Assembly (NCBI RefSeq): GCF_900491935.1
Contig: NZ_UEXK01000004.1
Span: 1,801,061 to 1,865,060 of the forward strand
Length of the DNA stretch: 64,000 bases
DNA from: Klenkia terrae
GTDB lineage: Bacteria; Actinomycetota; Actinomycetes; Mycobacteriales; Geodermatophilaceae
Direction of reading: 5' to 3'
How positions within the stretch are numbered: the stretch's first letter is position 1; each line of letters begins with the position of its first letter. Below the pieces are notes generated by a model. That model was given only the letters and a program-made list of their open reading frames with translations, ran no database searches and was not told the DNA's origin. This document shows positions 12,959 to 28,365 of this stretch, piece by piece. A program made the translations under genes and the position numbers.

Positions 12959-13795
12959 TCAGCCGGACAGGGCGAGGGTGCTGCGGGCCTGGCGGGCGAC
13001 GGCCTCGTCGAGCATCCGGCCGTCGGCACCGATCGCCACCCCGGGGGACGCCGCCAGCCGGGTCAGCACGTCGCGGGCCTCGGCGACCTCCTCGGGCGTG
13101 GGCCGGCAGACCCGCTCCACCACCTCGACCTGCGCCGGGTGGATGCACGCCCGGCCGCGGAAGCCCATCGCCGTGAGCGCCCGGGTCTGCGCCTCGAAGG
13201 CGGCCAGGTCGCGGAACTCGGTGGACACCGCGGCCGGCGGCGGCGCGATGCCGGCGGCGGCCGAGGCGAGCACGACGGCGCTGCGGGCCAGCAGCAGCTC
13301 GGCGCCGTCCGGGCCGGGGGTGACGCCGAGGTCGGCGGCCAGGTCGACCTCGCCGAGCTGCAGGCAGCGCACCCGCGGCCCGCCGGCCAGCGCGGGGGCG
13401 GCGAGCACCCCGGCGGCGCTCTCCACCAGCGGGCTGACCCCGATGCCCCCCGGCGAGCGCCCGGTGGCCTCCTCGGCGGCCAGCAGTTGGCTGTGCACCC
13501 GCTCCAGCAGCTCCCGGGACGCCGCCTTCGGCAGCACGACGCCGGTCAGCCAGGGCGCCCGGGCCACGGCGTCGACGTCGTCCCGACCCCGCTCGCCGGT
13601 GTTGACCCGTACCCACACCTGGGCCGCCGGCCGCTCCCCGAGCAGGGTGAGGACGGCGGCCCGGGCGGCGTCCTTGCCGGCCGGCGGGACGGCGTCCTCC
13701 AGGTCGAGGACGACGGCCCCGGCCCCGGTGGCGACCGCCTTGGCGAACCGGTCGGGCCGGTCGCCGGGCACGTAGAGCCAGCTGCGGACGGTCAC
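12959..13795 (-). CDS. HpcH/HpaI-CitE-type CoA-ester lyase
   Basis: Cleaves a 3-hydroxy-acyl-CoA, of the citramalyl-CoA or malyl-CoA class, into acetyl-CoA plus a keto acid, in the cytosol. The 278-residue length and motifs fit stand-alone CitE-like proteins: RSWLYVPGDRPDRFAKA at the N-terminus, VVLDLEDAVPPAGKD, WVRVNTGE, LQLGEVDLAADLG (metal-binding Glu/Asp) and GFRGRACIHPAQVEVV. GTG at 13795 overlaps the acyl-CoA dehydrogenase stop by 4 bp. It ends a four-gene operon with a MaoC hydratase and a CoA transferase, the same trio used for itaconate and mesaconate dissimilation; citramalyl-CoA is therefore my leading substrate guess. Confidence 0.87.
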   Translation of the reverse strand: MTVRSWLYVPGDRPDRFAKAVATGAGAVVLDLEDAVPPAGKDAARAAVLTLLGERPAAQVWVRVNTGERGRDDVDAVARAPWLTGVVLPKAASRELLERVHSQLLAAEEATGRSPGGIGVSPLVESAAGVLAAPALAGGPRVRCLQLGEVDLAADLGVTPGPDGAELLLARSAVVLASAAAGIAPPPAAVSTEFRDLAAFEAQTRALTAMGFRGRACIHPAQVEVVERVCRPTPEEVAEARDVLTRLAASPGVAIGADGRMLDEAVARQARSTLALSG

Positions 13796-14955
13796 CCGAC
13801 GACCGTCGTGCCCGCGACCAGCGACTTGGCGATGACGGTGCGCAGCACGTCGTTGGTGCCCTCGCCGATCGCCATCAGCGGGGCGTCGCGGTAGAGCCGC
13901 TCGACGACGAACTCGGTGGAGTAGCCGTAGCCGCCGTGGATCCGCATGGCTTCCAGGGACAGCGCCAGCGCGGTCTCCGAGGCGAACACCTTGGCCATGC
14001 CGGACTCCGCGTCCACCCGCTGGCCGGCGTCGGCCTTGGAGGCGGCCCAGTAGGTGAGCAGCCGGGCGGCCTGCAGCTGGGTGGCCATCTCGGCCAGCTT
14101 GAGCGCGATGGCCTGGAACTCCGCGATCGGGTGCCCGAACGCCTCCCGCTCGCCCGCGTACTTCAGCGCCGCGTCGTAGGCGGCCTGGGCGACGCCGACG
14201 CTGCGGCCGGCGATGTTGAGCCGGCCGATCTCCAGGCCGCTCAGGGCCTGCTTCATGCCCAGGCCCTCGACGCCGCCGAGCAGGTCGGTGGCCGGCACCC
14301 GGACGTCGACCAGCGAGATCTCGCAGGACTCGGTGCCCTTGTAGCCGAGCTTGCCCAGGTCCCGGCTGACCTCGAAGCCCGGGGACGACGTGTCCACCAG
14401 CAGCAGCGACATGCCGCGGTGCCGGGGCTCGGCCTTCGGGTCGGTCTTCACCAGCACCGGCAGCACGTTCGCGTGCCGGGCGTTGGTGATCCAGGTCTTG
14501 GTGCCGTTGACGACGTAGGTGTCGCCGTCCAGCACCGCCGTCGTGGCGATGCCCTGCAGGTCGGTGCCCGCGCCGGGCTCGGTGAGGCCGACGCCGGTGC
14601 GCCACTCGCCGGTGGCCAGCTTGGGCAGGAAGCGCTGCTTCTGCTCCTCGGTCCCGTGCTTGGCGATCATCCAGGCCGAGAGCCCGTGGCTGCCGAGGAT
14701 GCCGGCGATGCCCATCCAGCCGCGGCTGATCTCCTCGTAGACGAGGGTGAAGCTGACCATGTCCAGCGCCAGGCCGCCGAACTCCTCGGGCGTGGTCAGG
14801 CCGAACAGGCCCATCGCCTTCAGGTGGTCGACGATCTCGGTCGGGTAGCGGCCGGTGCGCTCCCACTCCGAGGCCACCGGCACGATCTCGCGGTCGACGA
14901 AGCGGCGCAGCGCCTGCTGGAAGTCGCGCTGCTCCTCGTTGAGGGTGAAGTCCAC
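13792..14955 (-). CDS. Acyl-CoA dehydrogenase
   Basis: FAD enzyme of 387 residues that introduces a 2,3-double bond into an acyl-CoA and passes electrons to ETF. Seen: VDFTLNEEQRDFQQALRRFV start, TEPGAGTDLQG flavin-binding block, the WITNARHANV segment, and MRIHGGYGYS then IGEGTNDVLR, which places the usual catalytic Glu in GEGT. GTG at 14955 begins one base after the CoA-transferase stop and its own stop overlaps the CitE-like start. In this operon a short branched or dicarboxylic acyl-CoA such as methylsuccinyl-CoA would make chemical sense because MaoC and lyase steps would follow; that is inference. Confidence 0.9.
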   Translation of the reverse strand: MDFTLNEEQRDFQQALRRFVDREIVPVASEWERTGRYPTEIVDHLKAMGLFGLTTPEEFGGLALDMVSFTLVYEEISRGWMGIAGILGSHGLSAWMIAKHGTEEQKQRFLPKLATGEWRTGVGLTEPGAGTDLQGIATTAVLDGDTYVVNGTKTWITNARHANVLPVLVKTDPKAEPRHRGMSLLLVDTSSPGFEVSRDLGKLGYKGTESCEISLVDVRVPATDLLGGVEGLGMKQALSGLEIGRLNIAGRSVGVAQAAYDAALKYAGEREAFGHPIAEFQAIALKLAEMATQLQAARLLTYWAASKADAGQRVDAESGMAKVFASETALALSLEAMRIHGGYGYSTEFVVERLYRDAPLMAIGEGTNDVLRTVIAKSLVAGTTVVG

Positions 14956-14956
14956 G

Positions 14957-16159
14957 TCAGTGCTCCTGGTGTCCGAAGGCGCCGGCGGCGGCCAGTGCGG
15001 CGACCTTCTCGGGTGGGTAGCCGAGCAGGTCGGTGATCGCATCCTGGTGCTCGTTGCGGTGCGGGGCGCGGCGGTGCTCGGTGGGCTGGTCGCCGAAGCG
15101 GACCGGGCTGCCCACCTGCCGCACGGTGCCCCAGTGCGGGTGCTCGGTCTCCAGCAGCAGCCCCCGGGCGGCGGCCTGCGGGTCGGCCAGCGCCTGGACC
15201 ACGTCGTTGATCGGGGACGACGGCACCCCCGCGGCCTGCAGCAACGCCATCCAGTGCGCCACCGTGTCGGCGGCGAACACCGCCTTGAGCTGGGGCAACA
15301 GCTCGGCGCGGTGCACGTCGCGGAGCTGGAAGGTGGCGAACCGGTCGTCGTCCCCCAGGTCGGGCCGTTCGAGGACGGCGACCAGCCGCTGCCAGAACTT
15401 CTCCTTGGCGCAGCCGACGACCAGCCAGCCGTCGGCGGCCTGGAACGCCTGGAACGGGACCAGCGAGGGGTGCGCGGAGTCGACGGTGCGGACCGGTTCG
15501 TACCCCGCCGTCATCGCCCAGGTGGCCGGGTAGGTCAGCAGCGACATGGCGGTGTCGTAGAGGGAGACGTCGCAGTCCCCGCCGACGCCGTCCCGCCGCG
15601 CGGCGTGCAGCCCGGCCATCAGCGACAGCGCGGCGACGAAACCGCTGGAGAAGTCCACCAGCGACAGCCCGGTCTTGGTCGGCGGGCCGTCGGGGTCGCC
15701 GGTCAGGCTCATCCAGCCGGCGATGCCCTGCAGCACGTAGTCGTAGCCGGGCTCGGCCGCGCGCGGGCCGGTCATGCCGAAGCCGGTCAGGCTGCAGCAG
15801 ACGACGGCCGGGTTGAGGTGCGCGAGGTCGGCGTACCGGATGCCGATCTTGGCCGGGACGTCGCCGCGCAGGTTGGACCAGACGGCGTCGCTGGTGCGCA
15901 CCAGGTCCTCGAACACCGCGCGCCCGGCCGGCGTGGAGATGTCCAGGGACAGGCTCTGCTTGTTGCGGTTGAAGGTCTCGAAGAACAGCGACTCCTCGCC
16001 GTGCACGTACGGCGGGACGTAGCGGCCGATGTCCCCGCCGGTGCGCGGGTCCTCGATCTTGATGACCTGGGCGCCGAGGTCGGCCAGGTGCACGCTGCCG
16101 AACGGGCCGGCGCCGTACTGCTCCAGGGCGATGATCCGCACGTCCTCCAGCGGCCTCAT
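14957..16159 (-). CDS. CaiB/BaiF class III CoA transferase
   Basis: Transfers CoA between a CoA donor such as succinyl-CoA and a free organic acid, activating the pathway substrate. The 400 residues begin MRPLEDVRIIALEQYGAGPFGS, with LADLGAQVIKIEDP, NRNKQSLSLDI, GYDYVLQGIAGWMSLTGDPDG (as GYDYVLQG and MSLTGDPDG) and the catalytic Asp in SLVDFSSG (about 169-176). The ATG at 16159 overlaps the MaoC stop (ATGA). Its place between a MaoC hydratase and an acyl-CoA dehydrogenase suggests activation of a dicarboxylic acid; itaconate, mesaconate or methylsuccinate are candidates. Confidence 0.92.
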   Translation of the reverse strand: MRPLEDVRIIALEQYGAGPFGSVHLADLGAQVIKIEDPRTGGDIGRYVPPYVHGEESLFFETFNRNKQSLSLDISTPAGRAVFEDLVRTSDAVWSNLRGDVPAKIGIRYADLAHLNPAVVCCSLTGFGMTGPRAAEPGYDYVLQGIAGWMSLTGDPDGPPTKTGLSLVDFSSGFVAALSLMAGLHAARRDGVGGDCDVSLYDTAMSLLTYPATWAMTAGYEPVRTVDSAHPSLVPFQAFQAADGWLVVGCAKEKFWQRLVAVLERPDLGDDDRFATFQLRDVHRAELLPQLKAVFAADTVAHWMALLQAAGVPSSPINDVVQALADPQAAARGLLLETEHPHWGTVRQVGSPVRFGDQPTEHRRAPHRNEHQDAITDLLGYPPEKVAALAAAGAFGHQEH

Positions 16160-16680
16160 GCGGTCAGCGGCCCGGTCTTGGCCTCGGGGAAGTGGCCCTG
16201 CCCGATGCCGGACTCCCTCGTGGCGACCATGACCGAGCGCTTGAACGAGATGCACTCGTCGCCCTCGGAGGTCAGCCCGCGGGTCACCATCGACACGATG
16301 CCCGCGTAGGGCCGGGACTTCGACGCCCGCAGGCCGGTGCACAGGCTCTCCGCGTAGAGGGTGTCGCCGACGTAGACCGGGTGGGTCAGCCGGACGTCGG
16401 TCATCTCCAGGTTCGCCACCGCGTTCTGGCTCATGTCCAGCACGCTCAGGCCCAGCGTCAGGGCGATGGTCAGCCCCGAGTTCACGATGACGCGGCCGCC
16501 GGTGATGGGGTTCTGCGCGGCGAGGTGCGCGTTCACGTGCTGCTGGTTGGTGTTCATCGTCAGCATGGTCAGCCAGGTGTTGTCGGCCTCGGAGATCGTG
16601 CGGCCGAGCGGGTGCTGGTAGACGTCGCCCACGACGTAGTCCTCGAAGTACCGACCCAGGACGGCTGGGTGTGTGGTCAT
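16156..16680 (-). CDS. MaoC-like hot-dog hydratase
   Basis: A 174-residue single hot-dog-fold protein of the MaoC dehydratase family that adds or removes water at an enoyl-CoA. GRYFEDYVVGDVYQHPLGRTISEADN is the family entry (as GRYFEDYVVGDV and GRTISEADNTW), followed by NQQHVNAHLA where the hydratase-2 motif sits, and THPVYVGDTLYAES. The wording of these motifs is close to mesaconyl-CoA or beta-methylmalyl-CoA dehydratases, as far as I can judge by eye. ATG at 16680 starts a four-gene leftward operon; the gap to the divergent amidase carries a GTCTGAT site. Reaction assigned by context, not proven. Confidence 0.87.
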   Translation of the reverse strand: MTTHPAVLGRYFEDYVVGDVYQHPLGRTISEADNTWLTMLTMNTNQQHVNAHLAAQNPITGGRVIVNSGLTIALTLGLSVLDMSQNAVANLEMTDVRLTHPVYVGDTLYAESLCTGLRASKSRPYAGIVSMVTRGLTSEGDECISFKRSVMVATRESGIGQGHFPEAKTGPLTA

Positions 16681-16706
16681 GGAGACCTCCCTCGACAGCC
16701 GGACGG

Positions 16707-16722
16707 TAAACGTCTGATGATT
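16707..16722. promoter_or_regulatory. GTCTGAT motif in MaoC/amidase divergent promoter
   Basis: GTCTGAT at 16712-16718 lies in the 74-bp divergent gap, inside the context TAAACGTCTGATGATTA. It is one base from the palindromic core GTCNGAC and shares its flank TAAAC with the site at 24896-24902. FadR-type GntR proteins bind short palindromes of this size; the regulator at 22862-23572 is the candidate. Confidence 0.45.
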
Positions 16723-16754: not shown

Positions 16755-17951
16755 ATGGACGACGCCCGCACCAACTCCGTGATCCGCCGGGTCGACCGCC
16801 CCGTCGTCCCCGGGGGCACCCTGTCCGGGATCCGGCTCGGGGTGAAGGACAACATCGACGTCGCCGGCGGCTCGACGACCTGCGCGTCGGCGTTCTTCGC
16901 CGACCGGGTGCCCGGCGCGGACGCTGAGGTCGTGCAACGGCTGACCGCCGCCGGCGCCCAGCTCGTGGCGACGCTGAACCTGAGCGAGTTCGCCGTCGGG
17001 GTGACCAACCAGAACTCCGCGGCCGGGCCGTGCCGGAACCCGTGGGACCTCGACCGGGTGCCGGGTGGCTCGTCGGGCGGGTCGGGTGCGGCGGTCGCCG
17101 CCGGGGTGGTGGACCTGGCGCTGGGCACCGACACCGGCGGGTCGATCCGGCTGCCGGCCTCGGCGTGCGGGGTCGTGGGGCTGCGGCCCACGATCGGCTC
17201 GATCCCGACCGACGGCGTCTTCCCGGTCTGCGACGACGTGGACACCGTCGGCCCGCTGGCCAGGGACGTCGCACTGGTGGCCCGGGCGCAGCGGGTGCTG
17301 ACCTGCTCGACGGCGGCGCTGCCCGCACCCGCCGTCCCGCGCCGGATCGGGCTGCCGGTGCAGCTGCTCACCGACGTCGACCCCGGCGTCCGGGCGGTGG
17401 TGGACGCCGCGGTGGCGGTGTTCGGGGCCGAGGTCGTGCCGATCGAGGTCGAGGGCCTGCTCGACGCCCAGGACATCGTCTACACGCTGGTCTACGCCGA
17501 CCTGGCCCGGATCCACGCCGACCGGCTGGCCACGGAGCCGGACCGGTTCCACCCGGACACGCTGGTCCGGGTCGGCCTGGGCCGCGGCATCACCGCTGAC
17601 GAGCGGGCGGCCGCCGTCCTCGCCCGGCAGGCGCTGCAGGACCGGATCTCCGCGGCGCTGGACGGCGTCGACCTGCTGCTCACCCCCACGATGCCGGTCG
17701 ACGTGCCGCGCGCCGACCCCGACGACGTGCTGCGGGTGTCCCGGCGGCTGGGCCAGCTGACCTACCCGTGGTCGCTGCACGCCGGGCCCACGCTGGCGCT
17801 GCCGGTGGGCCGGCACCCGCAGTCGGGGATGCCGGTGGGCGTGCAGCTGACCGCGCCGGTGGACGCCGAGGACGTGCTGCTCGCGGCCGGGCTGTGGTTC
17901 CAGGAGCAGACCGCCTGGCACACCGCGCGGCCGCCGGCGGTCAGCCGCTGA
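16755..17951 (+). CDS. Amidase-signature-family hydrolase
   Basis: Hydrolyses a carboxamide to acid and ammonia with the Ser-cisSer-Lys triad. Lys51 lies in GVKDNIDVAGG, the Gly/Ser-rich block PGGSSGGSGAAVAAG (from about residue 100) provides the cis-Ser, and the nucleophilic Ser is in LGTDTGGSIRLPA. At 398 residues it is shorter than GatA (about 490) and lacks its C-terminal lobe, so it is a catabolic or detoxifying amidase, close in size to AtzF/allophanate or malonamidase-like enzymes. ATG at 16755 follows GGAGG. It is divergent from the CoA-thioester operon and may feed it with an acid. The stop overlaps the convergent alpha/beta hydrolase by 11 bp. Confidence 0.9.
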   Translation: MDDARTNSVIRRVDRPVVPGGTLSGIRLGVKDNIDVAGGSTTCASAFFADRVPGADAEVVQRLTAAGAQLVATLNLSEFAVGVTNQNSAAGPCRNPWDLDRVPGGSSGGSGAAVAAGVVDLALGTDTGGSIRLPASACGVVGLRPTIGSIPTDGVFPVCDDVDTVGPLARDVALVARAQRVLTCSTAALPAPAVPRRIGLPVQLLTDVDPGVRAVVDAAVAVFGAEVVPIEVEGLLDAQDIVYTLVYADLARIHADRLATEPDRFHPDTLVRVGLGRGITADERAAAVLARQALQDRISAALDGVDLLLTPTMPVDVPRADPDDVLRVSRRLGQLTYPWSLHAGPTLALPVGRHPQSGMPVGVQLTAPVDAEDVLLAAGLWFQEQTAWHTARPPAVSR

Positions 17952-18645
17952 GGCCGAGCACCAGGTCGCGGACCTCGGCGGGCCGGGAGAGGAACGGGTG
18001 GTGCCCGGCGTCGATCTCCACGACCCGGCCCGCCCGCTGCGCGAACTCCCGCTGCCGGTCGGCCGGTGTCCCCCGGTCCTGGGTGCAGACCAGGTAGGTC
18101 GAGGGCACGTCGTGCCACGCGGCCGCCCCGACGGTCTGGCCGAGGACCTGCACGCCCTGCCGGGCCAGGCGCTCGGTGGCCTGCTGCTGCACGTCGCTGG
18201 CGCAGTCCTGCAGGAACGTGTCCACCAGCAGCTCGGGCCGGACGGCGAAGGTGCCGGCATCCGGGTCGACGGCGAGGAAGGGGGCCGGGCCGCCGTCCCC
18301 GCCGAAGTCGGCCAGGCACTGCCCGACCTCCGGCAGGTAGCTGGAGACCAGCAGCAGGTGCCGCACGGCGCCCACGCCGGCGGCGGCCTCGGCGGTGACG
18401 ATGCCGCCGTAGCTGTGCGCCACCACCACGGTGGGCTCGTCGCTGCCGGTCAGCACGGCGCGGACGGCGGCGACGTCCTCGGTCAGCCCGGGTCCGCCGG
18501 TGCCGGCGGCCGGGCCGGTCTCGCCGCAGCTGGGCAGCGCCGGCGCGACGCTGGCGACGCCCCGCTCGGCCAGCAGCTCCGCGGTGCGGTGCCACCACCA
18601 CGCGCCGTCCCGGACGCACGCCCCGTGCACGAACACGACCCTCAT
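17941..18645 (-). CDS. Alpha/beta-fold hydrolase
   Basis: Esterase or amidase-like hydrolase of 234 residues. It begins MRVVFVHGACVRDGAWWWHR (oxyanion HG motif), has the nucleophile elbow AHSYGG with Ser near residue 83, an acid in VCTQDRGTP near 187 and the catalytic His in AGHHPFLSRP near 213. This matches the short hydroxynitrile-lyase/methylesterase-like branch of the superfamily. ATG at 18645 is chosen because of GGGAG upstream and the compact N-terminus. It is divergent from a TetR gene with a near-perfect palindrome between them, and is presumably its target. Substrate unknown. Confidence 0.88.
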   Translation of the reverse strand: MRVVFVHGACVRDGAWWWHRTAELLAERGVASVAPALPSCGETGPAAGTGGPGLTEDVAAVRAVLTGSDEPTVVVAHSYGGIVTAEAAAGVGAVRHLLLVSSYLPEVGQCLADFGGDGGPAPFLAVDPDAGTFAVRPELLVDTFLQDCASDVQQQATERLARQGVQVLGQTVGAAAWHDVPSTYLVCTQDRGTPADRQREFAQRAGRVVEIDAGHHPFLSRPAEVRDLVLGLSG

Positions 18646-18688
18646 CGCTGCTCCCGAATGTCTCGACTCCGTCACCGAGAACGCTAGA

Positions 18689-18704: not shown

Positions 18705-18713
18705 CGAAAAGCT

Positions 18714-19268
18714 GTGGCGGTGGGACGACGACCGCAGCCGGAGATCCGGGAGCAGCTGCTGGACGCCTGCGCCGACCACGCGCTCGCCCACGGCCTGCCC
18801 GACCGGACCGCCCCGTTCGTCGCGGCCACCGGCACGTCGGCCCGGATGCTGCTGTACCACTTCGGCACCCGCGACCAGCTGCTGCGCGCCGTGCTGGAGC
18901 GCGCCCGGCACCGTCAGGTCGCCGCGTACCAGGACCTGCTGCGGGCCCGCCCCGGCGAGCCGTACCCCGACACCCTGGCCCGGGCCTGGGCCGGCATCTC
19001 CGGCCCGGACGGGGCGCCGTTCCTGCGGGTGTTCTCACCCCTGCGCGAGGACGCCGACCAGCAGCTGTGGCCGGAGTTCCGCCGGCTGGCCACGACCGAC
19101 TGGCTGGGCCCGCTCGAGGCCGGGCTGGCCACCCTCGGTCGTCCCGAGCTCGCCACGCTGGTGCTGGCTGTGATCCGCGGGTTGCTGATCGACCGGCAGG
19201 CCACCGGCGACGCCGAGCGCACCGACGCCGCCTTCGCCGAGTTCCTGACCTCGCTCAGCCCGAGGTGA
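18714..19268 (+). CDS. TetR-family transcriptional regulator
   Basis: A 184-residue one-component regulator. The N-terminal helix-turn-helix spans about residues 10-55 with the recognition segment TSARMLLYHFGTRDQLL, matching the family's ...LYYHF.SKE.L. The C-terminal half is helical and ligand-binding, without recognisable specificity. GTG at 18714 begins just after the palindrome at 18689-18704. It is divergent from the alpha/beta hydrolase gene, the probable target. Its last 14 bp overlap the convergent VOC-protein gene. Confidence 0.88.
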   Translation: MAVGRRPQPEIREQLLDACADHALAHGLPDRTAPFVAATGTSARMLLYHFGTRDQLLRAVLERARHRQVAAYQDLLRARPGEPYPDTLARAWAGISGPDGAPFLRVFSPLREDADQQLWPEFRRLATTDWLGPLEAGLATLGRPELATLVLAVIRGLLIDRQATGDAERTDAAFAEFLTSLSPR

Positions 19269-20367
19269 CGACGAGCTCGTTGCCCTCGGGGTCGACGACC
19301 CGGCCCTCGTCGACCAGCCGCCCGCCCGCGGCCAGGGCGGTGTCGATCCTGGCCCGGACGGCGTCCTCGGGCACGGTGAGCACGAGGTGCAGGCGGTTGC
19401 GCTGGCGGCGGCGGTCCTCCTCGGCCGGGTCGAGGGGCTGGAAGACCATGACCGGTCCGAGCCGGCGCGGGTCGTGGATCTCGGTGAGCCCGGGCCGCTC
19501 GTCGGCGACGTAGCCGAGCACTGCCGTCCAGAACGCCTGCACGGCGGCGACGTCGGCGGCGTCCAGGAACAGCTGCCTGAACCGCGGCAGCTGCGGGTCG
19601 GCGACGGCGCCGAGGTCGCGGGCCGCGGACTGCAGGCGGGTGGGCAGCGCGGGGGCGGCGGCCGCCGAGCCGCAGACGCCGTCCTCCCACTGGGCCTTGC
19701 CGCTGGCGAGCACGACGAGGTCGGGTCGGACGTCGACGAGCAGCGGCAGCCCGGTGCCGGCGACCAGGTCCGCGGCGGCGGCAGCGAGCCGTGCGGGTGA
19801 GTCGGTGCGGTAGCAGGCCATCGCGCTGAACACGGCCCACCACTCCTCGGCGCCCTCGCCCAGCGGTCCGCCGGGCAGCAGGTCGACCTCGTTGCCCTCG
19901 GGGTCGGCCTGTCGGACGCCGTACGGGCCCACCCCCGCGCCCAGCCCCAGCTCCGCGACCACCGGGGCGGGGCGGACGACGTCGAGGTGGATCCGGCTGC
20001 GCAGCGGTCGGTGCTCGTCGGACCGCCGGATCAGCAGGGCCGGGTCGCGATCCGCGGGGTCCAGCCCGAGCACCGACCCCCAGAACCGGGCCGCGCCCGC
20101 CGGGTCCGCGGACTCCAGGACGACGTCCAGCCGCTGCAGTGCCCCGGGATCGGCGGTCAGCCCGAGGTCGCTCGCGGCCGCCGACACCGCGGCGGTGTGC
20201 TCGGCGGAGTCCAGCCGCACCCGGGCGCCGCCAGCCCGGACGTCGACGGCACTGCCGGGCGCCAGTTCGGCGATGCGGCTGGCCAGCGCGGCTGCCTGCA
20301 CCTGGGACGGCGCGACGAACCACGCCGTCGCCGAGCCGCCGATGCTGCGCCAGCCGGGGTCCGCCAT
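19255..20367 (-). CDS. Pterin-4a-carbinolamine dehydratase-like domain fused to two VOC domains
   Basis: A 370-residue fusion. Residues about 1-75 (WRSIGGSATAWFVAP, AVDVRAGGARVRLDSAEH, GLTADPGAL) resemble the pterin-4a-carbinolamine dehydratase fold in reduced form, without the usual His-His pair. Two glyoxalase/VOC domains follow: about 80-195 (ADPAGAARFWGSVLGLDPADRD ... DPEGNEVDLLPGG) and about 260-370 (AAVQAFWTAVLGY ... DPEGNELVVTSG). Each VOC unit keeps the DPEGNE end motif. Enzymatic activity and substrate are unknown. ATG at 20367 is preferred over a start seven codons upstream because it begins the conserved domain. No operon partners. Confidence 0.75.
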   Translation of the reverse strand: MADPGWRSIGGSATAWFVAPSQVQAAALASRIAELAPGSAVDVRAGGARVRLDSAEHTAAVSAAASDLGLTADPGALQRLDVVLESADPAGAARFWGSVLGLDPADRDPALLIRRSDEHRPLRSRIHLDVVRPAPVVAELGLGAGVGPYGVRQADPEGNEVDLLPGGPLGEGAEEWWAVFSAMACYRTDSPARLAAAAADLVAGTGLPLLVDVRPDLVVLASGKAQWEDGVCGSAAAAPALPTRLQSAARDLGAVADPQLPRFRQLFLDAADVAAVQAFWTAVLGYVADERPGLTEIHDPRRLGPVMVFQPLDPAEEDRRRQRNRLHLVLTVPEDAVRARIDTALAAGGRLVDEGRVVDPEGNELVVTSG

Positions 20368-20432
20368 CTCGGCACCGTAGTGCCGCACAGGCCCGCCGCG
20401 CGACGGTTCCGGAACGGTGCCAGGGTGGAGTG

Positions 20433-20600: not shown

Positions 20601-20912
20601 GCTGGGTACATCGCTCAGGCGCCGGTCGACACCGTCCCGAGGCCGAGGGGCAGCAGCGCCGTCCCGCTGAGGCATCGGCCGCAGCAGGACCGCGTTCCGG
20701 TCGAGGAATTGGAGTCCATCGGCACACCAGCGCCCAGCCACAGGCGTATCTAGCGGCCAGCGGGCGTCCGGAACCACACGTCACCCGTTGGCACCGTCAA
20801 TGAAGCGCCGGCCCCGCGCTCTGCTCCGGGGACAAGCAGTGCCATCCGGCCGCACCCAGTCCGCGAACTCGACAAGCAGCCCTCGCGGCCACCAACACAC
20901 TACCGGTCGTTC
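20601..20912. other. Gene-free stretch at left flank of the Septu insert
   Basis: No convincing coding frame, RNA gene or repeat was found in these 312 bp. Base composition falls gradually from the high-GC left side to the AT-richer defence genes on the right. No tRNA or att-like direct repeat is visible at this edge. Confidence 0.5.
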
Positions 20913-21563: not shown

Positions 21564-22806
21564 CGCCTGCTCGACTCAACGAGTTAACAGCTGCCGGAAA
21601 TTGATCTTGCAACCCAACGCTTCGCATCGCCAACTGAAGTGACCGCAGATTTTCGGCAGTCGCTCCACCTATCTCAAATGCCGCCATTGCTTCCGCCAGC
21701 GCCCCCTCCACCCACATTGGGATTGTCGTGCTCATTCCCAGGACCCGCTGGAGGGTCTCGTCCGCCGAGGCTGACTTGTTGGCCTGATCCAACAGTCTGC
21801 TACTGATTCCGGCGCCAGCAACGTCCTCTAGGACATACACGTGACTATCCGCAACCGATGTAACGATGAACGGAGAATGGGTGGCAATAATGAATGAAAT
21901 CGTGGGAAAGGCGGAAAGAAGGCCCGGGATTAGTGAACGCTGGAGGCTGGGGTGCAAGTGATTCTCAGGTTCATCCATGCAGACGGTAAAGGCGCGGTAA
22001 GCGCGGCTTCGCAGCAGCAATTGCCAACTAAGTTCGATGATGGAACTGATTCCGCCAGAGACGGCGTCCATCAAGAATTCGCCGTTTGTCGTCACGACGA
22101 CAATGTCTGGAGATCGCACAACTAGCCGCACGAATCCGAACGACCCCGGCAGGACTAACGACAGTACTTCCTGGAAAGATTCCCACACATCTCGAGCTTC
22201 AGGATTGGCTTCGACGGACTCCGAATCCCGCCCGAACAGTGCTGCGGCAATCAGTGCTTCCTTCATGGCGGTCAGTGGATTCTTGGCGGTGTACGCGCCA
22301 GAATATCTGTTCAGAATCTCCGCGAAAAATTGCTCGAAAACTACGTCCGCCGATGAGAACTGTGCAGGGATGTTGACGAGAGGCTGGTAACGACTAATCG
22401 AGCGGTGCGAAGAGATATATAGACCCGGAACAGCCTGCTGCTGGTTCAGATTTAGTGTCTGCTCGGCGGAGGACGGGTCTGGATAAAGCAACAGATCGGT
22501 TTGGCCCCCCAGTTCGTACCAAAGGGTCCCCACGCTTCTTACACCAGCACGCTCCTCCGCTCGCCCGTCCGAGCGCCAGTATTGCCGACCGCCACCTTCC
22601 GGAACGCCCAGTAGTTGACTTTGCCAGTTGAAGTGCCGGCCGAGAATATTTAAAAGGGTGGTCTTACCAGAGGCGTTAGCGCCCGTGATGACCGTCAAGC
22701 GCGGGTGGAACGCTAAATCAATCTCACTAAATTGGCGCCACGATCTTATTTGTAGACGCATGAATGCTGGACGATCGCCCATTTGAGGATTGACCATTAT
22801 TCGCAC
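21556..22806 (-). CDS. ptuA: AAA ATPase, PtuA-like (Septu defence)
   Basis: A 416-residue ABC/SMC-like ATPase. Walker A is GANASGKTT (42-50), Walker B with the catalytic Glu is in FTVCMDEPENHLHPS (about 270-285), followed by ISFIIATHSPFIV, the OLD/AAA_21 type switch His. RQFSEIDLAFHPRLTVITG before Walker A is the RecF-like entry. GTG at 22806 has AAGG upstream; an ATG three codons later is equally possible. It senses or powers the PtuB nuclease encoded directly downstream. One sampled row (22321-22380) has 31 G+C of 60, far below the surrounding genes, which supports acquisition as an insert. Confidence 0.82.
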   Translation of the reverse strand: MRIMVNPQMGDRPAFMRLQIRSWRQFSEIDLAFHPRLTVITGANASGKTTLLNILGRHFNWQSQLLGVPEGGGRQYWRSDGRAEERAGVRSVGTLWYELGGQTDLLLYPDPSSAEQTLNLNQQQAVPGLYISSHRSISRYQPLVNIPAQFSSADVVFEQFFAEILNRYSGAYTAKNPLTAMKEALIAAALFGRDSESVEANPEARDVWESFQEVLSLVLPGSFGFVRLVVRSPDIVVVTTNGEFLMDAVSGGISSIIELSWQLLLRSRAYRAFTVCMDEPENHLHPSLQRSLIPGLLSAFPTISFIIATHSPFIVTSVADSHVYVLEDVAGAGISSRLLDQANKSASADETLQRVLGMSTTIPMWVEGALAEAMAAFEIGGATAENLRSLQLAMRSVGLQDQFPAAVNSLSRAGDA

Positions 22807-22861
22807 ATCACCCTTCTGCTACCCGAGAAGCCCCCCGAACATCGGAGCATAAGATCGGCCA

Positions 22862-23572
22862 TCAACCTCGGCTCAAGCGGTCCATCTGCAGATACGCGCC
22901 AGTCAGATGGTCAAGGTGCCGCCGCATGGCGGTGATCGCCCCGTCGGCGTCCCGCGCCGCGACCAGGTCGTGCAGCTCCGCGTGGTCGTCGGCGACGCAC
23001 GACCAGAACCCGTCCGGCGCGTGGTCGCGGCCGAACCGCGTCGCCAGCACCCGGAACAACGGCGCCGTGATGACCTCCAGCAGCGGGTTGCCGGTCGCCC
23101 GCAGCAGCACCAGGTGGAAGTCCTGGTTCGCGGAGTAGGTCGCCTCGCCGGTGGACTCGGCGGGGTCGAACTCCGCCCGCCGCAGGTCCTCCAGCTGCTC
23201 GTCGGTGCGGTGCCGCGCCGCCTCCCCGGCGGCCGGCACCTCCAGCAGGTGACGCAACGACATCAGCTGCCCGACCGTCACCCGCTCGGCGGCGGCCATC
23301 AGCGTCACCCCGGTCTCCAGGTGCGCCGAGAGGTGCCCGACCGTCGGCACGCTCACGAAGCTCCCTCCCGAGACACCCCGGGTGGTCTGGATGAGGTCCT
23401 GCGACGCCAGCGACCGCAGCGCCTCGCGCACCGTCGACCGACCCACCCCGAAGTCGGCGGACAGCTCCTGCTCGTTGGGCAGCCGCGACCCCGGCGCCAG
23501 CTCGCCGCTGAGGATCCGGGCCCGGATGGTCCCCGCCAGCACGGCGTACGCAGGCCCCGTCACCCGACCCAT
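22862..23572 (-). CDS. GntR-family regulator, FadR subfamily
   Basis: A 236-residue regulator with an N-terminal winged helix (about 1-75; ARILSGELAPGSRLPNEQELS as ILSGELAPGSRLPNEQEL, then GVGRSTVREALRSLASQDLI) and a C-terminal all-helical FCD domain. Metal-binding residues of FCD are plausible in DFHLVLLRATGN and the DDHAELHDLVAARD region. FadR-type proteins respond to carboxylates or acyl derivatives. The gene is divergent from the WrbA-like gene; a GTCTGAC palindrome sits 38 bp before that start. Two further copies of the motif, at 24896 and 16712, suggest a small local regulon. Located just outside the AT-rich Septu insert. Confidence 0.88.
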   Translation of the reverse strand: MGRVTGPAYAVLAGTIRARILSGELAPGSRLPNEQELSADFGVGRSTVREALRSLASQDLIQTTRGVSGGSFVSVPTVGHLSAHLETGVTLMAAAERVTVGQLMSLRHLLEVPAAGEAARHRTDEQLEDLRRAEFDPAESTGEATYSANQDFHLVLLRATGNPLLEVITAPLFRVLATRFGRDHAPDGFWSCVADDHAELHDLVAARDADGAITAMRRHLDHLTGAYLQMDRLSRG

Positions 23573-23676: not shown

Positions 23677-24291
23677 GTGCCCGCCACCTCCCGCATCGCC
23701 GTCGTCTTCTACTCCTCCACCGGCAACCTGGCCGCCATGGCCGAGGCCATCGGGAAGGGCGCCGAGGAGCACGGCGCCGAGGTCCGGCTGCGGATCGTCC
23801 CCGAGCTGGCCCCACCCGCCGCGATCGCCGCCAACCCCAAGTGGCAGGCCTTCGTCGACGAGGCCCGCTACGAGACCGCCACCCTCGACGACCTCGAGTG
23901 GGCCACCGGCATCGCCCTGGGCAGCCCCACCCGCTTCGGCCTGCCCGCCGGCCAGCTCAAGGAGTTCCTCGACACCACCGGCGGCCTGTGGTTCCAGGGC
24001 AAGCTCGCCGACAAGGTCGGGACGGCGTTCACCAGCGCCTCCACCGGCCACGGCGGCCTGGAGTCCACGATCCTGGCGATGAACAACGTGCTCTACCACT
24101 GGGGCTCGCTGGTCCTCCCCCTCGGCTACGGCGAGCGGCACCTGATGAAGGAGTCCGGCAACCCCTACGGCGGCTCCTTCGTCTCCCGCTCCGGCGCCGC
24201 CCCCGACGACGTGGCCCTGGAGGCCTGCCGGCTGCAGGGCGTGCGCCTCGCCAAGTTCGCCGGCATCGTCGCCGACGGGCTCGCGGGATGA
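23677..24291 (+). CDS. WrbA-like flavodoxin-fold NAD(P)H:quinone oxidoreductase
   Basis: FMN protein of 204 residues that carries out two-electron reduction of quinones. RIAVVFYSSTGNLAAMAEAI is the flavodoxin phosphate loop, GSPTRFGLPAGQLKEFLD and TGGLWFQGKLADKVGTAFTS are typical of WrbA, and GHGGLESTILAMNNVLYHWG (as GHGGLESTIL and NVLYHWG) carries the His-Gly-Gly signature. GTG at 23677 has GAGGAG upstream. It overlaps the next ORF's ATG by 4 bp. In this cluster it may supply reduced flavin or dispose of quinonoid by-products for the RutA-like monooxygenase; this is inference. Confidence 0.87.
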   Translation: MPATSRIAVVFYSSTGNLAAMAEAIGKGAEEHGAEVRLRIVPELAPPAAIAANPKWQAFVDEARYETATLDDLEWATGIALGSPTRFGLPAGQLKEFLDTTGGLWFQGKLADKVGTAFTSASTGHGGLESTILAMNNVLYHWGSLVLPLGYGERHLMKESGNPYGGSFVSRSGAAPDDVALEACRLQGVRLAKFAGIVADGLAG

Positions 24292-24893
24292 CCGCCGAGC
24301 CGGTCCTGGTCGGCATGGGCCGGCTGGCCTCCACCGAGCGACCCGGGCTGGTCCTGGTCGACTGCCAGAAGCTCTTCACCCTGGACCCGGCCGTCTCCGC
24401 GGCCGCCGAGGGCTGCGGCCGGGCCGCCGCGGCCGCCCGCGCCGCCGGCGTCCCGGTCGTCTGGCTGCGGGTGCTCTTCGAGGACGACGACGAGCTCGGC
24501 CCGGTCTGGACGGCGAAGGCCCCTGCCCTCAAGCAACTGCGCCCCGGCGCCGAGCTGGCCGAGTTCGACGACCGCGTCGGGTACGTCGACGGCGACCCGG
24601 TGGTGACGAAGAAGCGGGCCTCGGGGTTCGTGCACACCGTGCTCGACGACCTGCTGCACGAGCTCGACGTCCACACCCTCGCCGTCGCCGGGTTCACCAC
24701 CGCTGGCTGCGTGCGGGCCACCGTCGTCGACGCCGCCTCGCTGGACTACGCCCCCGTCGTCCTCGCCGACGCCGTCGCCGACCGGTCCACCGCGATCCAC
24801 GACGCCGCGCTGGTCGACCTGGACGCCCGGTACGCCGACGTCGTGCCCGACGGCGCCGCCTGGTTCCGCGCGCTGGGGTCTACCGCCGGCTAA
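24288..24893 (+). CDS. Isochorismatase-like cysteine hydrolase
   Basis: A 201-residue hydrolase of the isochorismatase superfamily, many of which cleave C-N bonds. The triad is present: Asp in VLVDCQKLF (about residue 24), Lys in TKKRASGFVHTVLDD (about 106) and the nucleophilic Cys in GFTTAGCVRATVVDAAS (about 143). Known relatives include RutB, which hydrolyses the ring-opened product of RutA, as well as nicotinamidase and N-carbamoylsarcosine amidase. Since a RutA-like enzyme is encoded three positions downstream, a RutB-like role is attractive but not proven. ATG overlaps the flavoprotein stop; the TAA is immediately followed by a GTCTGAC site. Confidence 0.85.
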   Translation: MTAEPVLVGMGRLASTERPGLVLVDCQKLFTLDPAVSAAAEGCGRAAAAARAAGVPVVWLRVLFEDDDELGPVWTAKAPALKQLRPGAELAEFDDRVGYVDGDPVVTKKRASGFVHTVLDDLLHELDVHTLAVAGFTTAGCVRATVVDAASLDYAPVVLADAVADRSTAIHDAALVDLDARYADVVPDGAAWFRALGSTAG

Positions 24894-24895
24894 AC

Positions 24896-24902
24896 GTCTG
24901 AC
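24896..24902 (+). promoter_or_regulatory. GTCTGAC palindrome before the MmgE/PrpD gene
   Basis: GTCTGAC lies three bases after the hydrolase stop, in TAAACGTCTGACC, and 31 bp before the next start codon. It suggests an internal regulated promoter for the MmgE/PrpD, monooxygenase and lyase genes. Confidence 0.45.
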
Positions 24903-24933
24903 CTATGGTCGCCGTCACAGGAGGGAGTCACCC

Positions 24934-26313
24934 ATGAGCCTCGCCCGCCAGGTCGCCGACGTCGTCGCCCGCACCACCTCGGACGACGTCCCCACCCCCG
25001 TGCTCGACCGCGCCCGCCACCTCGTCCTGGACGCCGTCGGCCTCGCCTTCGCCGCGTCCGCCCACCCCTTCGCGGACACCGCCGCGCAGGCGCTGGGCTC
25101 CTTCGGCCCCGGCGACGTCCCCGTGCTGGGCAGCAAGACCCGGCTGCCCGCCCGCGACGCCGCCGTCCTCAACGGCGTGCTGGTGCACGGCCTGGACTTC
25201 GACGACACCCACATCGGCGCCGTCACCCACGTGTCCGCCTCGGCGCTGCCCGCCGCGATCTCCGCGGCCGTCGCCGCCGACGCCAGCACCCGCGACCTGC
25301 TGCTGGGCTACGTGCTCGGCGTCGAGGTGGCCGCCCGGGTCGGCCTGGCCGGCGCCGGTGCGTTCCACGACCTCGGCTTCCACCCCACCGCCCTGGCCGG
25401 CGCGTTCGGCTCGGCGGTCGCGGCGGGCTCGGTCACCGGCCTCGCGGAGGACCAACTGGTCGCCGCGCAGGGCGTCGTCGGGTCCATGGCCGCCGGGCTG
25501 CTGGAGTTCCTCGAGGACGGCTCCTGGACCAAGCGGCTGCACCCCGGCTGGGCCGCGCAGTCCGGCATCACCGCCGCCGCGTTCGCGAAGGCCGGGTGGA
25601 GCGGCCCGGAGGCCGTCTACGAGGGCCGCTTCGGCCTGTTCGCCACCCACCTCGCCGGCCGGGAGACCCACCCCGAGCTGGTCGCGGCCGGCCTGGGCGA
25701 GCGCTGGGAGACCGCCGAGACCGCGGTCAAGCCCTACCCGATCTGCCACTTCGCGCACGCCTTCGCCGACGCCGTCCTGCTGCTGCGCGAGCAGCACGAC
25801 CTGCGCACCGAGGACGTCGCCGCGATCCGCTGCGCCATCCACCCGGTGCCCGGCAAGGTGGTCTGCGAGCCCGCCGCGGCGAAGTGGGAGCCGCGCGACG
25901 AGTACGACGCCAAGTTCTCGCTGCCCTACGTCGTCTCCACCGCGCTCGCCTGCGGCCGGTTCACCCTCGCCGAGCTCGAGGACGACGCGCTGCGCGACCC
26001 CGAGGTGCTCGCCCTGGCCCGCAAGGTCGAGGTCGTCCCGGACCCGGACAGCGCCTTCCCGGCCGCCTACTCCGGCTGGGTGCAGATCACCACCACCGAC
26101 GGCCGGGTGCTGACCCACCGCGAGCAGGTCAACCGCGGCCACGCCGACCGACCGCTCACCGACGACGACGTCGTCACCAAGTTCCGCGGCTCGATGGCCC
26201 CGGTGGCCGACGAGGCCACCACCGAGCGGGTGCTGGCCGCCGTCCTGTCCCTGGGCCGCGAGGCCACCGACACCTCCGCCCGCACGTTCGCCGAGGCCTG
26301 CGCCGCCGGCTGA
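24934..26313 (+). CDS. MmgE/PrpD-family protein
   Basis: A 459-residue member of the family containing 2-methylcitrate dehydratase (PrpD) and cis-aconitate decarboxylase. VLVHGLDFDDTHIGAVTHVSAS (DFDDT at 88-92; quoted in part as HGLDFDDTH and VTHVSAS) is the diagnostic active-site block. LQPL-type helices and KPYPICHFAHAFADA, with a conserved KPYP-CHF segment, follow, then a C-terminal lid. The family converts small tricarboxylates or dicarboxylates by dehydration or decarboxylation. ATG at 24934 follows AGGAGGGAG. Followed by RutA-like and lyase genes; a PrpD plus isocitrate-lyase-family pair mirrors the end of the methylcitrate cycle, but no prpC is here. Confidence 0.88.
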   Translation: MSLARQVADVVARTTSDDVPTPVLDRARHLVLDAVGLAFAASAHPFADTAAQALGSFGPGDVPVLGSKTRLPARDAAVLNGVLVHGLDFDDTHIGAVTHVSASALPAAISAAVAADASTRDLLLGYVLGVEVAARVGLAGAGAFHDLGFHPTALAGAFGSAVAAGSVTGLAEDQLVAAQGVVGSMAAGLLEFLEDGSWTKRLHPGWAAQSGITAAAFAKAGWSGPEAVYEGRFGLFATHLAGRETHPELVAAGLGERWETAETAVKPYPICHFAHAFADAVLLLREQHDLRTEDVAAIRCAIHPVPGKVVCEPAAAKWEPRDEYDAKFSLPYVVSTALACGRFTLAELEDDALRDPEVLALARKVEVVPDPDSAFPAAYSGWVQITTTDGRVLTHREQVNRGHADRPLTDDDVVTKFRGSMAPVADEATTERVLAAVLSLGREATDTSARTFAEACAAG

Positions 26314-26370
26314 CCCCCAGACCCCGGCAGCGACGCCGGCCCACCCCACCTTCTAGTCACAGGAGCAGGC

Positions 26371-27423
26371 ATGGACTTCGGCGTCTTCATCCCGATCGGC
26401 AACAACGGCTGGTTGATCAGCGAGAACGCTCCGCAGTACATGCCGAGCTTCGAGCTGAACAAGCGGATCGTGCAGGAGGCCGAGGCGCAGGACTTCGCCT
26501 TCGCGCTGTCGATGATCAAGCTGCGCGGGTTCGGCGGCAAGACCGAGTTCTGGGACCACAACCTGGAGTCGTTCACCCTGATGGCCGGCCTGGCCGCGGT
26601 GACGGAGAAGATCAAGCTCTACGCCTCGACCGCTGTCCTCACCCTGCCGCCGGCGCTGGTCGCCCGGATGGCCACCACCATCGACTCCATCGCGCCGGGC
26701 CGGTTCGGCATCAACATCGTGTCGGGCTGGGCGTCGGGCGAGTACTCGCAGATGGGCCTGTGGCCCGGCGACCAGTACTTCGGCGAGCGCTACGACTACT
26801 CCACCGAGTACGTCCAGGTGCTGCGCGCGCTGTGGGAGACCGGCACCTGCGACCTGGACGGCAAGTACTTCCAGATGACCGACTGCAAGCTGTCCCCGCA
26901 GCCCAGCGCGCCGATCGACATCGTGTGCGCCGGCCAGTCCGAGCGCGGGATGCAGTTCTGCGCCGAGCACGGCGACTACAACTTCATCCTCTCCCCGGGC
27001 GTGAACACCCCCGAGACCTACCGGGAGCCCACCGAGAAGCTGGCCGCCGCCGCGGCGAAGAGCGGTCGGGACGTCGGCTCGCTGCCGCTGTTCATGGCGA
27101 TCATGGCCGACACCGACGAGGAGGCCCAGGCCAAGTGGCAGAGCTACCACGACGGCGCTGACCTGGGCGCGCTCGGCTACATGAGCGAGGAGGGGTCCAA
27201 GGACACCTCGGCCGACTCCGGCGGCACCGCGCGGACGATCAACCTCCCCGAGGGCGCGGTCAACTTCAACATGGCCACGCTGGTCGGCTCGCCGGAGACC
27301 GTCGCCCGGCAGATCGACGAGGTCGCGAAGATGCCCGGGGTCAAGGGGATGATGTTCACCTTCGACGACTTCGAGAAGGGCGTGAAGACCTTCGGCGAGA
27401 AGGTCCGGCCCCTCCTCGGCTGA
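26371..27423 (+). CDS. RutA-like class of luciferase-like flavin monooxygenase
   Basis: A 350-residue TIM-barrel FMN monooxygenase resembling pyrimidine oxygenase RutA, which opens the uracil ring between N3 and C4 using a flavin-N5 peroxide. [22 protein letters not shown] at the start, the [24 protein letters not shown] block, [20 protein letters not shown] and [12 protein letters not shown] are those of RutA proteins (each quoted under 20 residues in part: [29 protein letters not shown]). No RutC-F genes accompany it, so the substrate may be another N-heterocycle or amide. It lies between MmgE/PrpD and a lyase. An intercistronic hairpin follows the stop. Confidence 0.9.
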
Positions 27424-27429
27424 TCTCCC

Positions 27430-27456
27430 CGGCGGGGCCCCGACCGGGCCCCGCCG
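27430..27456 (+). terminator. Intercistronic hairpin after the monooxygenase gene
   Basis: CGGCGGGGCCC (27430-27440) and GGGCCCCGCCG (27446-27456) form a perfect 11-bp stem with a 5-nt loop, beginning six bases after the stop. No T-run follows. It may attenuate transcription or stabilise the upstream mRNA; the lyase gene starts 24 bp later. Confidence 0.6.
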
Positions 27457-27480
27457 GTCCGCCTGCCCGGAAGGACCCCC

Positions 27481-28365
27481 GTGACCTCGTTCGTCGCCCC
27501 CCGCCCGAACCCGCGCGCCCGGCTGCGCGAGCTGCTGGCCGCTCCCGGCCCGCTCATCGCCCCCGGCGCCTACGACGCGTTGAGCGCCCGGCTGGTGCAG
27601 CAGGCCGGTTTCGACGTCGTCTACATGACCGGCTTCGGGACGTCGGCCTCGCTGCTGGGCCGCCCGGACGTCGGACTGCTGGGCGGTGCGGAGATGACCG
27701 ACAACGCCCGCCGGATGGCCCAGGCGGTCGACGTCCCGCTGATCGCCGACGCCGACACCGGCTACGGCAACGCGCTCAACGTCGTCCGGACGGTGCGGGA
27801 GTACGAGCAGGCCGGCGTCGCCGGGCTGCAGCTGGAGGACCAGGTCTCGCCCAAGCGCTGCGGCCACATGGCCGGCAAGGCCGTCATCGACGTCGAGGAG
27901 GCCGTGGCGAAGGTGCGGGCCGCCGTCGCCGCGCGCACCGACCCCGACCTGGTGGTCATCGCCCGCACCGACGTCGCCCAGGTCGAGGGCACCCGGGCCG
28001 CGATCGACCGCGCGCTGCGGTTCGCCGACGCCGGCGCCGACGTGCTCTTCGTCGAGGCCCCGCGCACCGCCGAGGACGTCGAGCTGGTGGCCACCGAGCT
28101 GAAGGGCCACCACCTGCTCTTCAACTGGGTCGAGGGCGGGCAGACCGAGGGCCTGACCATGGAGCGGGTCGCCGAGCTGGGCTTCTCCCTGGTCCTGTTC
28201 CCGATCAGCACCCTGCTCGCAGCCACGCACGCGATGCAGGCTGCGCTCTCGACGCTGAAGCTGACGTCGTCCACCGCCGGGGCGCCGATGGGCGACTTCG
28301 ACGGCTTCCTGCAGACCATCGGCCTGCCCGAGCTGCGCGCCGACGAGGCCCGCTTCGCCGGCTGA
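27481..28365 (+). CDS. Isocitrate lyase/PEP mutase-superfamily carboxylic-acid lyase
   Basis: A 294-residue TIM-barrel lyase. VYMTGFGTSASLLGRPD, PLIADADTGYGN (metal-binding Asp pair) and GLQLEDQVSPKRCGHMAGK are family hallmarks. The Cys in KRCGH (125-129) is the catalytic base found in true C-C lyases such as methylisocitrate lyase, 2,3-dimethylmalate lyase and oxaloacetate hydrolase; PEP mutases lack it. So cleavage of a branched hydroxy-dicarboxylate to pyruvate or a keto acid is likely. GTG at 27481 follows GGAAGGA. It closes the catabolic run and may act on the product of the MmgE/PrpD enzyme. Confidence 0.88.
   Translation: MTSFVAPRPNPRARLRELLAAPGPLIAPGAYDALSARLVQQAGFDVVYMTGFGTSASLLGRPDVGLLGGAEMTDNARRMAQAVDVPLIADADTGYGNALNVVRTVREYEQAGVAGLQLEDQVSPKRCGHMAGKAVIDVEEAVAKVRAAVAARTDPDLVVIARTDVAQVEGTRAAIDRALRFADAGADVLFVEAPRTAEDVELVATELKGHHLLFNWVEGGQTEGLTMERVAELGFSLVLFPISTLLAATHAMQAALSTLKLTSSTAGAPMGDFDGFLQTIGLPELRADEARFAG

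Follow-up and report, generated by a model that had tools for sequence, protein, structure and literature searches.

The window, a 64,000-nucleotide stretch of the Klenkia terrae genome (contig NZ_UEXK01000004.1), carries between positions 12959 and 28365 two runs of catabolic genes that together form one catabolic unit. We put at about 0.6 the probability that this unit degrades a carboxylated or alkylated cyclic amide or imide, draining it to pyruvate and an acyl-coenzyme A (acyl-CoA) thioester, as judged from sequence comparison. It is a new combination of separately known parts, and the nitrogen end is the new part. The first half, on the minus strand, consists of maoC-caiB-acd-citE (16680-12959), packed so closely that gene ends touch or overlap. 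The second is a plus-strand run, wrbA-isochorismatase-prpD-rutA-icl (23677-28365). The genes concerned are as follows.

12959-13792, minus strand: citE-like (HpcH/HpaI) lyase, a candidate citramalyl-CoA-type enzyme (PF03328, 122 bits)
13792-14955, minus strand: acd, acyl-CoA dehydrogenase (PF00441, 158 bits)
14957-16159, minus strand: caiB, CaiB/BaiF family III CoA transferase (PF02515, 405 bits)
16156-16680, minus strand: maoC, MaoC-type enoyl-CoA hydratase (MaoC, 55 bits; PF19315 mesaconyl-CoA hydratase, 63 bits)
16755-17951, plus strand: amidase-signature amidase, divergent from maoC (PF01425, 274 bits)
22862-23572, minus strand, start approximate: gntR, GntR/FCD regulator, divergent from wrbA (PF00392 and PF07729, 70 and 77 bits)
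23677-24291, plus strand: wrbA, WrbA-type NAD(P)H:quinone oxidoreductase (NF002999, 156 bits, over the cutoff of 141)
24288-24893, plus strand: isochorismatase-fold cysteine hydrolase, a candidate half-amide hydrolase (PF00857, 122 bits)
24934-26313, plus strand: prpD, MmgE/PrpD family protein (PF03972, 199 bits; PF19305, 142 bits)
26371-27423, plus strand: rutA, flavin monooxygenase, a candidate oxygenolytic ring opener (TIGR03612, 581.7 bits, cutoff 498.3)
27481-28365, plus strand: icl, isocitrate lyase (ICL)/phosphoenolpyruvate (PEP) mutase family lyase (PF13714, 174 bits)

All genes that an earlier note on this DNA had named in the interval lie where it placed them, with family matches far beyond chance. 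The start of acd was picked by eye (14955), and the profile scans of its product ran from 14970. Among the named proteins RutA, labelled 'RutA-like' in the earlier note, is alone in passing the cutoff of a curated specific-enzyme model; the model that WrbA passes is a general one. The closest named relatives of the window are Klenkia species and Modestobacter sp. Leaf380.

The linkage of the two halves, proposed in the earlier note together with a search for co-occurrence elsewhere, is borne out by that search. All seven other genomes of the genus that were compared, picked via RutA, carry both halves in the same order (citE is whole in five and partial in one, and the seventh stretch stops inside acd). 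From a PrpD search limited to one genome per species we took 80 loci (the best 80 of 137 relatives), of which 48 bear actinobacterial titles. RutA at ≥ 75% identity is present in 34 of these 48 and maoC, caiB and acd together in 36, while caiB, acd and rutA occur jointly in 28. The six RutA loci that lack caiB and acd are five from the genus, where the first half lies wholly or partly past the stretch, and one 6-kb contig. Pseudonocardia and Actinomycetospora have a single cluster that unites the core with amidase, gntR, prpD and rutA, arranged for example as gntR / (citE-MFS)-maoC-caiB-acd-amidase-prpD-LLM-rutA. The RutA of these clusters is 80-87% identical to that of the window, and a GntR/FCD family regulator is again divergent from the Pseudonocardia cluster. 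Because the 80 loci had been selected by PrpD, we also sampled 170 Pseudonocardiaceae genomes centred on P. dioxanivorans G633, itself reached via PrpD. With cuts of ≥ 77% for the RutA clade and ≥ 66% for PrpD (set at a gap in identity), each protein is found in 11 genomes, and in seven of them the two genes lie ≤ 3 kb apart (hypergeometric p 1.4e-7; six of ten when G633 is removed). A sample of 396 genomes of the phylum, the window's own included, held RutA in two and PrpD in four. In a RutA tree the 36 rows at ≥ 75% identity from PrpD loci form one clade (support 99/99), which adjoins a group made up of rut-operon RutA and amidase-linked RutA of alphaproteobacterial plasmids.

The nature of the ring opener is indicated by an exchange of genes. 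Genome G943 (L196) has the set citE, LLM, HyuB, HyuA, prpD, amidase, acd, caiB, maoC and gntR, with HyuAB, of the hydantoinase/oxoprolinase (caprolactamase-like) type, in the place that RutA takes in the window. HyuAB uses ATP rather than O2. Among the 41 actinobacterial loci of ≥ 15 kb, 28 have RutA only, six have HyuA and/or HyuB only, none has both and seven have neither, one of the seven being the plasmid cluster L054 (pPSED01), which bears a 45% RutA relative in place of the clade RutA. The replacement occurs in Amycolatopsis, Nocardia, Prauserella, Tamaricihabitans, Pseudonocardia acidicola and G943; the HyuA of one such locus (L078) is nearest to caprolactamase subunit alpha, under the cutoff (576 versus 1000 bits). 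The amidase tracks the ring opener, being present at 29 of 31 loci that have one and at none of six that have none (Fisher p 1.2e-5); this count omits four loci of the genus in which the stretch does not reach the first half, and with them the figure is 29 of 35 (p 2e-4). That the unrelated RutA and HyuAB turn up in one and the same position, with an amidase in either case, argues for a cyclic amide or imide as substrate and a half-amide as product of ring opening. This is our best reading of the gene replacement and of the chemistry of the families. The gene swaps make best sense within one pathway.

The known role of RutA is to open the rings of uracil and thymine. The window protein shares 212 of 349 residues (61%) with Escherichia coli RutA and keeps L65, N134, V136 and F224 of the O2 pocket, where we assumed a numbering offset of 19. 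T105 is replaced by Ser, as in all 61 aligned RutA rows (rows that include repeats of the same loci), and the E. coli T105S variant retains ∼ 80% activity (PMC7662398). The flavin chemistry is thus very probably that of RutA. The surrounding pathway is not the Rut pathway (rutABCDEFG), with which the locus shares RutA itself and a nearby isochorismatase-fold hydrolase. Four proteins of the genome match the RutB profile, none over its cutoff, and RutC-RutG have no match among the scanned neighbours of rutA. With the rut operon of Klebsiella (L129) as contrast, rutB-rutG were not found beside the window rutA, which belongs to a separate clade and has an amidase and dicarboxylate enzymes as partners. 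The cysteine hydrolase passes no NCBIfam cutoff (RutB model, 51 versus 378 bits), and its best relatives in the PDB are N-carbamoylsarcosine amidohydrolase (97 bits) and 3ot4/3uao (91 bits), 3uao being, we presume, maleamate amidohydrolase; RutB follows at 41 bits. Both N-carbamoylsarcosine and maleamate amidohydrolases cut small amide acids. WrbA, a possible flavin or electron supply, and a second luciferase-like protein (60% identity) exclude one another in the 41 loci (seven and 26 loci, none with both, eight with neither), six of the seven WrbA loci being the genus group.

Other neighbourhoods bear on the nitrogen end. In G913 (L192, C1:6025000-6043000) a RutA of 81% identity has as neighbours an isomerase of the PrpF family and a dicarboxylate carrier of the MatC type, with no MmgE/PrpD match within the 18 kb read; these neighbours point to a branched dicarboxylate. 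Two loci (L032 and L033, in G121 and G122) hold a RutA of ∼ 52% identity in a run with a dihydropyrimidinase-like hydrolase, a dipeptide-type ABC transporter and a GntR-like regulator, as judged by eye. Metagenome-assembled genomes (MAGs) of Halieaceae, Luminiphilus and Lysobacterales contain MmgE/PrpD clusters with an isochorismatase-fold hydrolase (L101, L102, L105, L107, L109, L111, L113), some with HyuA (L101, L105, L109) or an HpaB-type monooxygenase (L101, L102, L105), which suggests that the nitrogen theme recurs there with different ring openers.

For the carbon end there is a described counterpart. In PMC12290011 and PMC9875883, a five-gene core set for itaconate and methylsuccinate degradation was assigned in Pseudomonas and Cupriavidus (PA0878-PA0883 of P. 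aeruginosa, and C. necator) with the help of mutants and enzyme assays. All five protein families are present jointly in the window locus, which adds RutA, the amidase, the isochorismatase hydrolase, WrbA, the ICL-family lyase and GntR; it is also actinobacterial, whereas 96.2% of the isomerases surveyed there belong to Pseudomonadota. The earlier note knew of no described pathway with its gene set. This does not hold for the carbon core, which is published; as to the link to RutA, we found nothing in the open PMC literature that ties RutA to this gene set.

The individual proteins resemble these enzymes at a distance. The CitE-like protein scores 168 bits against NF038242 RipC_Ccl (cutoff 375), its best PDB match being 8khl, 'probable acyl-CoA lyase beta chain' (124.5 bits), and MaoC scores 145 bits against NF038241 RipB_Ich (cutoff 340); the RipB/Ich and RipC/Ccl models may reflect the Yersinia type. 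The best NCBIfam matches of the acyl-CoA dehydrogenase are acryloyl-CoA reductase (350 bits) and glutaryl-CoA dehydrogenase (285 bits), and CaiB matches succinate-glutarate (266 bits) and mesaconate (233 bits) CoA-transferases, each under its cutoff; CaiB also matches succinate-hydroxymethylglutarate CoA-transferase in the PDB (9br6, 248 bits). The MmgE/PrpD protein is the sole one of its family in the genome. The residues published for methylsuccinate isomerase are His88, Glu91, His102, Tyr148, His152, Lys202 and Lys266 (PA0881 numbering). The window protein has H85, D88, H99, H150, K200 and K266, so that three His and two Lys are kept and Asp88 stands at the position of Glu91. Aligned to relatives of the Glu/Tyr type, the position of Tyr148 is Asp146, or His145 if a one-residue gap is moved; D88 and H145 are invariant in all 48 rows at ≥ 55% identity. 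Its best PDB matches are iminodisuccinate epimerase (144 bits) and cis-aconitate decarboxylase (128 bits). Our best reading is that the protein probably acts on a 1,4-dicarboxylate and that the carbon end would work like the itaconate/methylsuccinate pathway. We do not claim identity with that pathway, and the intermediate may be a succinate that is larger or carries other substituents.

More specific assignments were tried and not adopted. The MmgE/PrpD protein may or may not be a methylsuccinate isomerase; the Glu/Tyr-type proteins used for comparison are 29-33% identical to it and none is tied to PA0881. They were found in proteobacterial genomes (G629, G630, G631) and on plasmids of Comamonas, Acinetobacter and Cupriavidus. 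Identification as cis-aconitate decarboxylase through Tyr318 of the human enzyme also failed, the aligned position 332 being unfixed (Tyr in 27 and Phe in 21 of the 48 rows). The methylcitrate variant of the route in the earlier note is disfavoured, as the candidates for both PrpD (60.7 versus 950 bits for the high-GC Gram-positive model, and 31.4 versus 575 bits) and PrpB (the ICL-family lyase against TIGR02317, 261.4 versus 354.4 bits) fall under the NCBIfam cutoffs for the 2-methylcitrate cycle. The general direction of the earlier note is retained: opening of a nitrogen ring or amide would feed a branched dicarboxylate, which ends up as pyruvate and an acyl-CoA.

The ICL-family lyase is closest in the PDB to 2,3-dimethylmalate lyase (3fa3, 200 bits) and has the motif KRCGH at 125-129, which we take to mark a lyase rather than a PEP mutase. 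Its gene is found at six loci of the genus group and, beyond it, in MAG L040 and Mycolicibacterium wolinskyi (L063). L063 lacks RutA but has PrpD, CitE and MaoC along with the lyase, as well as a pair of related transporter genes of which one was confirmed to be of the MatC type; for this reason the lyase seems to belong to the acid end.

From these parts we infer the following reactions. RutA would open the ring at a carbonyl C-N bond with O2, reduced flavin mononucleotide possibly being supplied by WrbA or another reductase. The amidase, in the genus perhaps with the isochorismatase-fold hydrolase, would then cut the half-amide (or a ureido group), releasing ammonia and leaving a branched 1,4-dicarboxylate of the methylsuccinate/itaconate type. 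MmgE/PrpD would take the C2 proton and isomerize this acid (or decarboxylate or dehydrate it) to a form that the next enzyme accepts. The CaiB transferase would form the CoA thioester and the acyl-CoA dehydrogenase desaturate it; hydration by MaoC and cleavage by the CitE-type lyase would give pyruvate and an acyl-CoA (acetyl-CoA if the acid is C5). In the genus, the ICL-family lyase may split a free hydroxy-acid side product. We go one step further only tentatively, and with odds well short of even: the PrpD-linked RutA clade might be an O2-dependent opener of cyclic imides (or lactams) and, with its cluster, an undescribed, dedicated route of soil actinobacteria from natural alkyl-succinimides or -maleimides to branched C5-type dicarboxylates. 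If so, alkyl-substituted succinimides and maleimides, for example from tetrapyrrole breakdown, would be an environmental source of methylsuccinate-like acids. More generally, RutA flavin chemistry may serve ring opening more widely, as suggested by a distinct RutA clade linked to a pathway for branched dicarboxylates, where an unrelated hydrolase of cyclic amides can take its place. A nitrogen-heterocycle feed is a testable source for the branched-dicarboxylate pathway, and the RutA and HyuAB clusters are matched alternatives for one inferred ring-opening step, offering a handle on the substrate.

Several observations pull the other way. Within the 48 loci wrbA is found at seven, icl at eight and the isochorismatase gene at nine, six of each being the genus group; beyond that group wrbA is present solely in L054 (75% identity). 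As the three genes are rare outside the genus, their tie to the pathway rests mainly on the genus. The second-half genes shared beyond the genus group are gntR, prpD and rutA, and the full ten-gene set is a feature of the genus. Accordingly the co-occurrence that the earlier note proposed to search for was found for the core, amidase, gntR, prpD and rutA, and was mostly missing outside the genus for wrbA, isochorismatase and icl. The loci share descent, and the p values overstate their independence. The RutA clade lacks a close PrpD in four of the 11 sampled genomes (G936, G913, G940 and G998): G940 and G998 have a 56-57% PrpD > 1 Mb from RutA, and G936 shows only gntR-amidase-rutA within the 18 kb read. 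Four sampled genomes with PrpD at ≥ 66% have no such RutA beside it, and ten further ones have a PrpD at 56-60% without a clade RutA. The RutA tree left out the proteins of the four genomes without a close PrpD, and the 45% relative of L054 lands outside the clade. None of the five core proteins (CitE, Acd, CaiB, MaoC, PrpD) is over an NCBIfam cutoff, and because the published Glu91 and Tyr148 are not seen in the MmgE/PrpD protein, methylsuccinate itself is not established. RutA is close to the uracil/thymine enzymes, and a pyrimidine substrate is possible. Finally, plasmids of Thioclava, Palleronia, Rhizobium and Novosphingobium (L123, L124, L127, L128) carry a RutA of 65-66% identity with two to three amidase matches, and no match to MmgE/PrpD, CaiB, MaoC or acyl-CoA dehydrogenase in the stretches read. 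GntR is annotated in both annotated records, rutB-G are not annotated beside rutA there, and the set is apparently another RutA cassette.

These last points are the ground for the strongest rival, in which RutA is an ordinary uracil/thymine monooxygenase, the amidase and isochorismatase hydrolase replace RutB, and the itaconate/methylsuccinate pathway merely shares a regulator or neighbourhood. It draws on the equivalog score and the pocket residues of RutA, with a T105S change that the E. coli enzyme tolerates (PMC7662398), on the plasmids with rutA and amidases and no dicarboxylate genes, one of which has an annotated malonic semialdehyde reductase, and on gntR-amidase-rutA standing alone in G936. 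We consider it unlikely, since RutB over cutoff and matches to RutC-RutG are wanting in the genome and among the scanned neighbours, respectively, HyuAB is exchanged for RutA inside the same cluster, and the RutA clade tracks PrpD in seven of the 11 genomes; from general pathway knowledge, moreover, the C3/C4 product of uracil or thymine needs no MaoC, CitE or MmgE chemistry. That the halves are separate pathways, neighbours merely through chance or shared ancestry, would fit their opposite strands and the insertion hotspot between them in Klenkia, and the rarity of wrbA, isochorismatase and icl beside the core elsewhere. This reading is strongly contradicted by the merging of core, amidase, prpD and rutA in other genera, variable inserts alone parting them here, and we regard it as very improbable.

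A third possibility keeps the nitrogen compound and changes the acid: the compound would yield cis-aconitate or a related tricarboxylate (e.g. from citrazinate or another 2,6-dioxopyridine carboxylate), the MmgE/PrpD protein would resemble cis-aconitate decarboxylase, and the rest would be plain itaconate degradation. The Asp at the Glu91 position and the absence of the second-base Tyr match the alignment with that decarboxylase, and the Pseudonocardia cluster includes a transporter whose nearest family is aromatic acid/H+ symport (205 bits, under the cutoff of 419). The Tyr/Phe variation at position 332 speaks against it, and the acyl-CoA dehydrogenase retained in the core is unneeded for itaconate degradation. 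A search of the open PMC literature for isonicotinic acid, citrazinic acid and aconitamide found nothing on such a citrazinate/aconitamide route. We think this possibility improbable, and prefer a cyclic amide or imide that yields a branched dicarboxylate.

The defence insert that the earlier note saw between the halves is a Septu pair by PADLOC:

20403-22869, no strand given: inserted segment with PtuB (20913-21563) and PtuA (21556-22806)

The two genes are adjacent and match PtuB-like HNH (PDLC00337, 197 bits) and PtuA-like AAA (PDLC00290, 458 bits) models. The GC content of the insert is 0.56, compared with 0.70-0.77 in the flanks, and opposite its ∼ 2.47 kb the relative G233 has ∼ 98 bases, i.e. 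no insert. The Septu insert is recent, separate and outside the pathway. Amidase and gntR lie 4.9 kb apart in the window, against 1.3 kb in G233 and 5.5-13.4 kb among six further genomes of the genus, and the gene content in between differs among them; within the genus this gap is a hotspot for insertions, which often bring defence-like genes. With one or two proteins scanned per locus, it holds an nSTAND protein with an Mrr domain (L014; Pfam only, PADLOC giving no match), a weakly Mad3/AriA-like ATPase (L016, 67 bits), RmrA and dCTPase (L018, 490 and 432 bits), an AriA-like ATPase (L022, 92 bits) and a SIR2-nSTAND protein (L026, ThsA, 84 bits). In L024 it contains sugar-uptake genes, as judged by eye, and in L020 it is almost empty.

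Three further genes between the halves, and a permease gene upstream of the cluster, complete the list:

17941-18675: alpha/beta hydrolase
18714-19268: weakly TetR-like gene
19255-20388: glyoxalase-like gene
6800-8326, plus strand: NCS1 permease (PF02133, 180 bits)

The first three were not in the gene list of the earlier note. The permease is a possible uptake protein of the pathway. It opens a run (6800-9641) with a SnoaL-like protein and an agmatinase-family ureohydrolase, which is well conserved in G233 too and may serve the uptake and use of a nitrogen compound.

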